Positions 33,506 through 36,836 of a stretch of DNA of 45,701 nucleotides are shown in pieces. The notes under the pieces are model-generated. The model was not told the origin of the DNA, did no database searches, and was given only the letters and a program-made list of their open reading frames with translations. Source of the stretch: Akkermansiaceae bacterium (GTDB lineage: Bacteria > Verrucomicrobiota > Verrucomicrobiia > Verrucomicrobiales > Akkermansiaceae); the NCBI GenBank assembly GCA_028822695.1, contig JAPKDA010000007.1, positions 1 to 45,701 of the forward strand, given 5' to 3'. A program made the position numbers and the translations under genes. Numbering within the stretch: the stretch's first letter is position 1; each line of letters starts with the position of its first letter.

Positions 33506-34450
33506 TCACTCCACTATCCGCGACCCGGGATAAAACACCTCCCACGCCCGGCGATACGAAATCATTCCGTTCCGCGGCACCAACCTCTCCCCCTTCTTCT
33601 CCCCAAATAAACACTCTCCAGTCACCACATCCCACTCCGACCCCGTCGCCGCATCCCTCATGCGCCCTGACTTCATCGCGGCAAACTCCACAACCGCTCC
33701 ATCCACCCGCACATCGAAAACCTGCACCCGCTTGCTGACCTTCCCAAGCGTCACCAACAACGCCTCCTCCCCGCTGCGCACCGAGACAACGGGCGTCTTC
33801 ACCAACTTCGCAAACGACACCGCTGGCGCCTTCTTTCCAACTCCCAGCGGCACGCCATACACAAACCGCGAGGGCGACTCCCACACCTCCAGATCAAACT
33901 TCTTCGCCGTCCGACTCATCGCCAGCACCGTCGTCTTCGGGTGCCGCTTCTTCCAATCCGCCCACGAGGTGATCACCCCCGGCAACATCTCAAAACTCTT
34001 CCCCTTCAATTCCCCCCGCATGCATTCTCCCAGCAAATGACTCCATAGAGACCCCGTCTCCAAATCACGAATCACCAAACTCCTCTGCCAAAGCATCCCC
34101 GACACCTGCAAGGTCAACTCCCGCTCTCCAACCGTTCTGGCATACACGATGCCATTAAAACACAGATGTCACCACGTTGCCGCAATGGCCTGCCCTCCCA
34201 GCTTGTCATTGATGATCTCCCGCCTCGGACTGGTGAGCATGTTGATCGGATAAGCCCGCGCCTCACCCTTCACCACCACCCCCAGGACCAGCTCCTCATC
34301 CTTCACAAAGCGTCCCGCCTCATCCACCCCGACCGTCTTCGGGTCCCGAATCTCCTCAAACGGCTCCACCACCTGCCGTGGCCTGAACTCCCGCTCCTCG
34401 GCCCACACAAACCCAGTCAACACCAGCATCAACATCAGAACTCTCTTCAT
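33506..34450 (-). CDS. DUF3179 secreted protein, candidate selenoprotein (in-frame TGA at codon 94)
   Basis: ATG 34450 opens a signal peptide (MKRVLMLMLVLTGFVWA) and a DUF3179 N-terminal block (LVLGVVVKGEARAYPINMLT, EIINDKLGGQAIAATW). The frame then meets TGA at 34169-34171 and continues with no shift for 220 codons as the rest of DUF3179: HLCFNGIVYART, LETGSLWSHLLGECMRGEL, then a second repeat ending ATGSEWDVVTGECLF and WEVFYPGS. In DUF3179 proteins this point is a conserved Y/F-C-P-L-C motif. Here the TGA takes the place of the first Cys, giving U-H-L-C. A 6-bp hairpin with a CGUGU loop starts 14 nt after the TGA. The reading is therefore a 314-residue selenoprotein. A nonsense mutation or sequence error of a Cys codon is the alternative. 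DUF3179 function is unknown; a thiol or selenol redox or metal role is inference. It is the last gene of a three-gene minus-strand unit. Confidence 0.7.
34138..34154 (-). promoter_or_regulatory. SECIS-like hairpin downstream of the in-frame TGA
   Basis: On the minus strand TGGCAT and ATGCCA form a perfect 6-bp stem with loop CGTGT. Fourteen nucleotides lie between the TGA and the stem, and 20 between the TGA and the loop. Bacterial SECIS elements sit immediately 3' of UGA with the apical loop about 16-37 nt away and a G among its first two loop bases. This hairpin meets those points and has a GU in the loop. Three more pairs (GTT with AAC) can extend the stem across an asymmetric internal loop. 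The fit is by eye; there is no direct evidence of SelB binding. Confidence 0.5.
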
Positions 34451-34509: not shown

Positions 34510-35664
34510 TTAGTCGTCCAGGCCCAACTGTTCCTGCAGGAGCCTCAACTCCTCCATGTGCCGCTCCAACTCACTTCCCCGGCCCCTCCTCGTAGCCTTG
34601 ATCCGTCGCAAATCCTCCTCATCCACCTCATCCCACCGCAGAGCCGCGCCCTTGTCATCAGCCTCTTCCTCATGGTCAGCCATCAAGGTCTTGATGCTGT
34701 CCGCCGGGAGAATGAACGACTTGATCCGACCTGCCCGCGCCAAGGCAATCCCGATCACCCGACCATCGAGATCAACAACCGGCGCACCACAGTCTTCCGG
34801 CTGAATCTGCATGTCCGTCTGGATCACCTTCGCAAAATTATCCACTACCAGACTGTAACGGTGCCCGCCCATCTTGTTCATGGTATCCATCCGACCCATC
34901 GGAATCCTGCCATCAGGCATCCCACCCAGCACAACCTCTGCTGACTTCTCCGCATCCTTCCGCCGATACCGCACTCGCACGGTCTCTCCCGGACTCATCC
35001 GCTGCAACGCCGTGCTCAACTCAAAATTTCCATTGGTATCAACATCGTTGATCCCGATCACCACATCACCACGTCGCAACCCGGCGGACTCCGCTCCGGT
35101 GCCAGCCTGCACCCTGTCGATCTGCACTCCTGGCCCGGCAAACTTGAGATCCATTTCCACCCCGAGAAAAGCCCGGTCGCCCGGTCGCAAACTCCGCGGC
35201 AGCACACTCACCACCCCAACGCCTCCGGCCTCTCCATCAGGACGGGCCAAGACGATGAAACTCCCCAAGGTCAAGTCACCACCGTCCGCGAACACGACTG
35301 GCGGAGCTTTTAATTCCTTCACCTCCAACAAGGCCAGGTCGTCCTCCGCATAAATCCCCACCACCTTTGCCGCCAGCAATCGGCCATCCTTTCCCCGACA
35401 GGACAGACTCTCCGCAGCCCGACTCACATCGCTCCACTTACAAATCACCTGCTCCGGCCCGACCACCGTTCCAAACCCAACCCGCTTCTGCCAAACACGC
35501 ACCTCCACGGCACTCGCCGAGGTCTTCTCCAGAACCGGCGCCACAGCGTCAAACACCCTCAACGCCTGTGCATCCAACTTCGCTCGGTCCTCCGGACGAA
35601 TGTCCTCGAACTGACCCATCACGACTCCCGTCGCAACAAAGGAAATCATCAATACCCGCTTCAT
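34510..35664 (-). CDS. Degenerate trypsin-like protein with nested PDZ domain (pseudoprotease)
   Basis: A secreted 384-residue protein starts at ATG 35664, 6 nt after GGAG, with a signal peptide (MKRVLMISFVATGVVMG) that closely resembles that of the DUF3179 gene. It has a DegP/HtrA-like fold but altered catalytic residues. The His site (TAGHVV in the upstream paralogue) reads CKWSDV with Ser78. Asp109 is kept (EDDLALLEV). The nucleophile site reads PEDCGAPVVDLDGRVIGI with Cys292 for Ser. A PDZ domain (about 165-248, FLGVEM to VLGG) sits between the two halves of the protease fold, before the QTDMQIQP strand, instead of after it. A charged C-terminal helix (about 340-384) follows. Hydrolysis is unlikely without the His, so a binding, chaperone or sensor role is inferred. 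It starts 22 bp after the upstream protease gene's stop. Confidence 0.85.
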   Translation of the reverse strand: MKRVLMISFVATGVVMGQFEDIRPEDRAKLDAQALRVFDAVAPVLEKTSASAVEVRVWQKRVGFGTVVGPEQVICKWSDVSRAAESLSCRGKDGRLLAAKVVGIYAEDDLALLEVKELKAPPVVFADGGDLTLGSFIVLARPDGEAGGVGVVSVLPRSLRPGDRAFLGVEMDLKFAGPGVQIDRVQAGTGAESAGLRRGDVVIGINDVDTNGNFELSTALQRMSPGETVRVRYRRKDAEKSAEVVLGGMPDGRIPMGRMDTMNKMGGHRYSLVVDNFAKVIQTDMQIQPEDCGAPVVDLDGRVIGIALARAGRIKSFILPADSIKTLMADHEEEADDKGAALRWDEVDEEDLRRIKATRRGRGSELERHMEELRLLQEQLGLDD

Positions 35665-35686
35665 CGTCATCTCCGTCTTGGATCGA

Positions 35687-36697
35687 TTATTGATCATCAT
35701 GCACATCACCCAAGCGGGCCAATTTCAACTTCCGACTCATCTCCTTGTTGCCACGCACGAACGTCACCGTCACCTCGTCGCCCGGTTGATGGGTATTCAG
35801 GATCCCTAGTAGACCTTTAAAACTCCGCACCCGCCTGCCGTCCAACTTCCTCACCACATCTCCAATCCGAATTCCCACCATCGCCGCCGGGGAGTTTTCC
35901 CGCACCTCACCCACCAACACGCCACCGCGAACCTCTCCCTCAACATTGAAACCAATCACCGGACGATCCGGATTCATGAGCGGGTTCAACGTCAACCGCC
36001 CCCAAGTCTCCCCGTCCTTCAATCGGTCCCAATCGCGCACAAAGTCACTCACCCCACGATGGTTGTTGCTCGAAAGCTCCGGTCCGATCGAGGAATGAAT
36101 CCCTACCACTTCACCCGACAGATTGAACAACGGCCCACCGGAATCACCGCCGATCAAGGCGCAATCGGTCACCAAATAACCCAGCGCGTTTCTCCCCAAA
36201 ATCCTCCCGAATCGCACCGGTGGAGTCCGCAAGGGATCGTAACCCCCGGCATGCCCCAACGACACCACCCAGTGACCAACCTTCACTTCATCAGAATCAC
36301 CCATCTTCACGAATGGCCAAGGCCCGTCGCCCTCCAACTTCACCATCGCTTCATCACGATTACGATTCGCACCCAGCACCGTTGCCCCGACCTGCTTCCC
36401 ACTCGGAAACACCACCATCACCTCCGCAAACCCATCCACCACATGCCCCGCGGTCAGGACGAGACCGTCTGCCGACACGATCACCCCGCTTCCACTCCCC
36501 GATTGGCCATTTTCCATGGTCGAAAACAATGAGACAGTTGCTGGCATCACCCTCGCCACCACCCCACGAACCTGTCCTTGAAGGTTCTTGAGGTCTCCCA
36601 GGGTCTGCACAGAGTCCTCTGCCCGGCCCAGACCGGAAAATACCAGCCCCCAGGCAAGAATTCCCGCTATGGTCGGTCGCGCACTTGTCACTTTCAT
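35687..36697 (-). CDS. Secreted trypsin-like serine protease with C-terminal PDZ domain (HtrA/DegP-like)
   Basis: This periplasmic protease or chaperone of the S1C type has 336 residues. A signal peptide ends near GLGRAED. The protease domain holds the full triad: His85 in LTAGHVVDGF, Asp115 in NRNRDEAMVKL and Ser186 in LIGGDSGGPLFNLSG. One PDZ domain lies at about 248-330 (IGFNVEGEV to LKLARLG). I choose ATG 36697, preceded by GAAGAG, over an upstream ATG at 36772 because it gives a signal peptide. It is the first gene of the protease, pseudoprotease and DUF3179 unit and is divergent from the PBP gene at 36837. Its substrates are unknown. Confidence 0.92.
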   Translation of the reverse strand: MKVTSARPTIAGILAWGLVFSGLGRAEDSVQTLGDLKNLQGQVRGVVARVMPATVSLFSTMENGQSGSGSGVIVSADGLVLTAGHVVDGFAEVMVVFPSGKQVGATVLGANRNRDEAMVKLEGDGPWPFVKMGDSDEVKVGHWVVSLGHAGGYDPLRTPPVRFGRILGRNALGYLVTDCALIGGDSGGPLFNLSGEVVGIHSSIGPELSSNNHRGVSDFVRDWDRLKDGETWGRLTLNPLMNPDRPVIGFNVEGEVRGGVLVGEVRENSPAAMVGIRIGDVVRKLDGRRVRSFKGLLGILNTHQPGDEVTVTFVRGNKEMSRKLKLARLGDVHDDQ

Positions 36698-36836
36698 CTC
36701 TTCGAAATAAACTCTCCCCAGACAAAGCGCCATTCTGAGGCGCTCTCGTCTCACGAAGAACTTCCTGACCATCCCCTACTTTCCCACCCCCGACAACCCA
36801 CAGTACTTCATTTCGCCTCTCCAGCATCACCAATAG

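Follow-up and report, generated by a model that had tools for sequence, protein, structure and literature searches.

The DUF3179 family (PF11376, UxxC/T) is listed as a predicted selenoprotein family in two reviews, both of which credit work on the Olavius algarvensis Delta 1 symbiont with the DUF3179 selenoprotein (PMC9312934, PMC13188914). Whether a selenocysteine (Sec) form of the family had already been described was left open in the original prediction for the locus analyzed here; the published lists do contain one, and the locus is hence less novel in this respect. The seemingly broken DUF3179 gene on a 45,701-nucleotide stretch from an Akkermansiaceae bacterium (the whole stretch analyzed, hereafter the window) is almost certainly intact and encodes a probably exported selenocysteine protein, which shares with the published DUF3179 selenoprotein the Pfam family, the UxxC motif, and the presence of one Sec. 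We put the probability that residue 94 is selenocysteine, whose insertion we infer from sequence comparisons, at about 95%.

From its ATG at 34450, the reading frame (Table 1) contained a single internal stop, a TGA that forms codon 94 and is flanked as ATW-U-HLCFNG, and ended in TGA at codon 315; it was the one DUF3179 gene found in a search of the genome. The read-through protein matched PF11376 (4.5e-52; 177.7 bits versus a gathering cut-off of 27) in an alignment that spanned the TGA (residues 34 to 183), with a further matching stretch downstream, and alignment with homologues placed the TGA where the CxxC motif of DUF3179 has its first Cys. These results agree with the original prediction, which had described a lone TGA at codon 94, flanked on either side by DUF3179 sequence and located on the conserved first Cys. 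The idea that the locus yields two products, a peptide of 93 residues plus a 213-residue protein initiated at GTG 34147, is next to negligible, since both frames appear in the mechanical ORF list but the split would cut one conserved domain between invariant residues and deprive the second product of U-H-L-C.

Table 1. Features of the DUF3179 locus in the window.
Feature	Coordinates	Strand	Description or basis
Predicted DUF3179 selenoprotein gene	33506..34450	-	314 residues; Sec = residue 94; terminal stop TGA
Predicted Sec-UGA codon, motif U94-H-L-C97	34169..34171	-	Reading frame and relatives
Likely signal peptide (putative), MKRVLMLMLVLTGFVWAEE	34394..34450	-	By inspection
SECIS-like hairpin, GGCAU-CGUGU-AUGCC	34139..34153	-	Covariation and bSECIS geometry

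A scan of 84,980 species (one genome each) with two patterns, one of which (AATWCHLC) finds Cys forms only and biases the scan toward them, yielded 48 loci of the window's type (clade 1) in Verrucomicrobiota, Planctomycetota, and Poribacteria. The codon-94 site was TGA in 46 of them and TGC in the remaining two (L077 and L092), both from Planctomycetaceae. Nineteen of 193 near genomes, the window's included, carried a DUF3179 gene with one TGA, and these genes were of two types, namely ATW-U-HLC (clade 1, including the window gene) and GVY-U-TLC (clade 2), with Cys forms reading GVY-C-TLC found near the latter. The expectation that related genomes would share the in-frame TGA was thus borne out. 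DUF3179 was present in 14 of 388 genomes drawn evenly from the phylum, and the TGA occurred in the window's genome alone, so that Sec forms appear to be concentrated within the phylum in the window's family and order. Two clade-1 Sec-DUF3179 genes (L063 and L089) were observed in one genome.

On either side of the UGA, dN was lower than dS in all pairs, and well below it (for L068/L069, dN 0.035 and dS 0.73 upstream, and dN 0.077 and dS 0.76 downstream), with the window's own pairwise comparisons near saturation at synonymous sites. Where relaxed selection downstream of the TGA had been proposed as a check, purifying selection was seen instead. A pseudogene, arising from a recent nonsense mutation or a sequencing error that turned a TGC or TGT codon for Cys94 into TGA, had been kept as an alternative in the original prediction; this needs one base change, and the other DUF3179 genes of the phylum sample had no internal stop. 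We nevertheless consider it very unlikely, given that the TGA recurs in three phyla, at 46 of 48 loci, and given the purifying selection downstream and the covarying hairpin and sel genes described below. A sequencing error at codon 94 is itself very unlikely because relatives carry the same TGA.

The neighbouring genes (HAD, TsaD, OmpA-like, and PDZ-protease) were common only to close relatives. Two adjoining trypsin/PDZ (Deg-like) protease genes lie upstream of the DUF3179 gene (window 34510-36772), and the DUF3179 neighbours were common to Roseibacillus-like genomes. The shared neighbourhood fits orthology and is uninformative on function.

Evidence not contained in the original prediction came from a hairpin starting 15 nt downstream of the UGA, with the loop reached at 20 nt and G followed by U from loop position 2. 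This geometry lies within the published bSECIS model, which specifies a loop of 3-9 nt, a G within the first two loop positions, and a distance of 16-37 nt from the UGA (PMC13188914). The 15-nt consensus GGCRU-NGUNU-AYGCC was found in 48 distinct Sec sequences (the 46 loci, L040, and the window). The pair R4-Y12 (columns 22-30) was A-U in 35 sequences, G-C in 13, and mismatched in none (Fisher p = 5e-12, uncorrected for phylogeny), a covariation in which Ile goes with TAT and Val with TAC; in one Sec sequence, a C-G pair was swapped for U-A. Helix cells were paired at 98.8% versus 94.4% in shuffles, a level reached by 0 of 500 shuffles, and sliding the helix along the alignment gave at most 57% paired cells. 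A covariance model of the hairpin had a single match within the window, at the hairpin site. In minimum-free-energy folding of the single sequence, the window hairpin had an ordinary energy (z -0.2); folding energy alone does not pick the hairpin out, and the case for a SECIS element rests on the covariation, uncorrected for phylogeny. The two Cys forms read AACACGGTGGTCTATGAC and AATACGGTTGTCTATGAC at the hairpin site, where the helix cannot form, and carry N-T where Sec forms have N-G.

The metagenome-assembled genome of the window (2.69 Mb, 226 contigs, 94.66% complete) encoded selA (481 bits; cut-off 268) and selB (314 bits; cut-off 242), both on contig C56, and tRNA-Sec (63.9 bits; cut-off 47), for which ARAGORN gave the anticodon tca (UCA). 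The tRNA-Sec gene (L023 1-91) sits right at the edge of contig C175, an assembly break. The proposed check for sel genes was thus answered for selA, selB, and tRNA-Sec; selD was not found over the cut-off in this draft assembly. Because selD exceeded the cut-off in 50 of 116 relatives, including G001 of the same genus, its absence is probably an assembly gap. In nearly all relatives that have SelD (e.g., L104 and L105), its gene is itself a one-TGA gene. The selB gene exceeded the cut-off in 17 of the 19 genomes with a TGA-containing DUF3179 gene versus 62 of 174 others (p = 6e-6, uncorrected for phylogeny) and, in the wider set, in 39 of 45 Sec genomes. No selB over the cut-off was found in two near relatives (G079 and G090) or in the other six of those 45 Sec genomes, all of which are drafts. 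For the genomes with Cys forms, selB over the cut-off was absent for L077 and present for the other.

Reading of the UGA without selenium, either as Cys or Trp genome-wide or through near-cognate suppression, would also keep the relatives' frames open beyond the TGA, as observed. It is highly improbable, as the window gene itself ends in TGA, adjacent genes are open under table 11, and the conserved hairpin together with selA, selB, and tRNA-Sec indicates Sec. The terminal stop was TAG or TAA in many relatives, close ones included. Since the same gene ends in TGA, UGA has not been reassigned and keeps its meaning as a stop. Under selenocysteine insertion, UGA 94 would be read by SelB and Sec-tRNA(UCA), with decoding directed by the hairpin 15 nt past the codon (loop at 20 nt), and the product would be a full-length exported DUF3179 protein with Sec at position 94. 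Export is probable from the signal-peptide-like N-terminus.

The AlphaFold model, in which Cys replaced Sec, had a mean pLDDT of 94.3 and a beta-rich fold, with U94-H95-L-C97 lying in the first half and directly following a beta strand. A D-x-x-T-G-S-x-W segment, noted by inspection, occurs again in the second half; this recurrence is suggestive of an internal duplication. There was no NCBIfam model for the protein and no match in a PDB sequence search (best E 0.16). The best Foldseek matches in the PDB were Rieske ferredoxins (probability 1.00, E 0.013 or worse, TM by target 0.5-0.6), a weak match over about 90 residues. H95 and H138 were invariant in 50 of 50 aligned clade-1 sequences and absent outside clade 1. 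These two observations lend some weight to a selenoprotein in which U94, H95, C97, and H138 serve as ligands to a metal or an iron-sulfur centre inside a Rieske-like barrel and carry out no thiol exchange. We regard this reading as unlikely: the Foldseek E-values are poor, both His residues are missing from other DUF3179 forms, the CxH...CxxH Rieske ligands were absent from the sequence and alignment, and the Pfam search of the protein returned no Rieske match. The more specific version, a periplasmic Sec-ligated centre in a degenerate Rieske-like barrel, is more doubtful still. The most likely function, which we hold to be reasonably probable, is a UxxC redox role as a periplasmic thiol/selenol oxidoreductase, in which Sec94 would attack and Cys97 would resolve the reaction through a selenenyl-sulfide.

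In a tree of 59 sequences, three changes between Sec and Cys were required. The two Cys forms of Planctomycetaceae nest within the Sec clade, a placement that we read as a reversal from Sec to Cys with loss of the SECIS. The clade 2 Sec forms group with sister sequences of the Cys type, on a long branch; a separate gain of Sec is likely here, if not certain. Together, the Sec and Cys forms offer a clean natural comparison, in which the covarying SECIS is lost after reversal, and they indicate where the active site of the DUF3179 family probably lies. Because automatic annotation is expected to split or truncate Sec-DUF3179 genes, this selenium-dependent, probably exported protein is probably under-recorded.

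Compared with the entries in the published lists, which are representative accessions, the window's subfamily is distinguished by U-H-L-C and the invariant H95 and H138, and it occurs in Verrucomicrobiota, Planctomycetota, and Poribacteria. The clade 2 Sec-DUF3179 proteins (GVY-U-TLC; L026-L029, from four genomes of the window's family) share the Pfam family and the TGA at the Cys position with clade 1. Unlike clade 1, they have about 450 residues, an N-terminal extension, and U-T-L-C, and they group with the Cys forms L030-L032. They have a possible hairpin of their own about 22 nt past the UGA. With Rieske [2Fe-2S] proteins, the window protein shares the weak likeness of fold and neither the ligands nor the Pfam family. 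In the literature searched, whose coverage was incomplete, only three papers referred to DUF3179, and we found no report of the Sec-DUF3179 subfamily of Verrucomicrobiota and Planctomycetota. Relative to the described selenoprotein family, the apparently new elements are the breadth of the subfamily, the covariation of its SECIS, the Sec-to-Cys reversal accompanied by SECIS loss, and the weakly Rieske-like fold.
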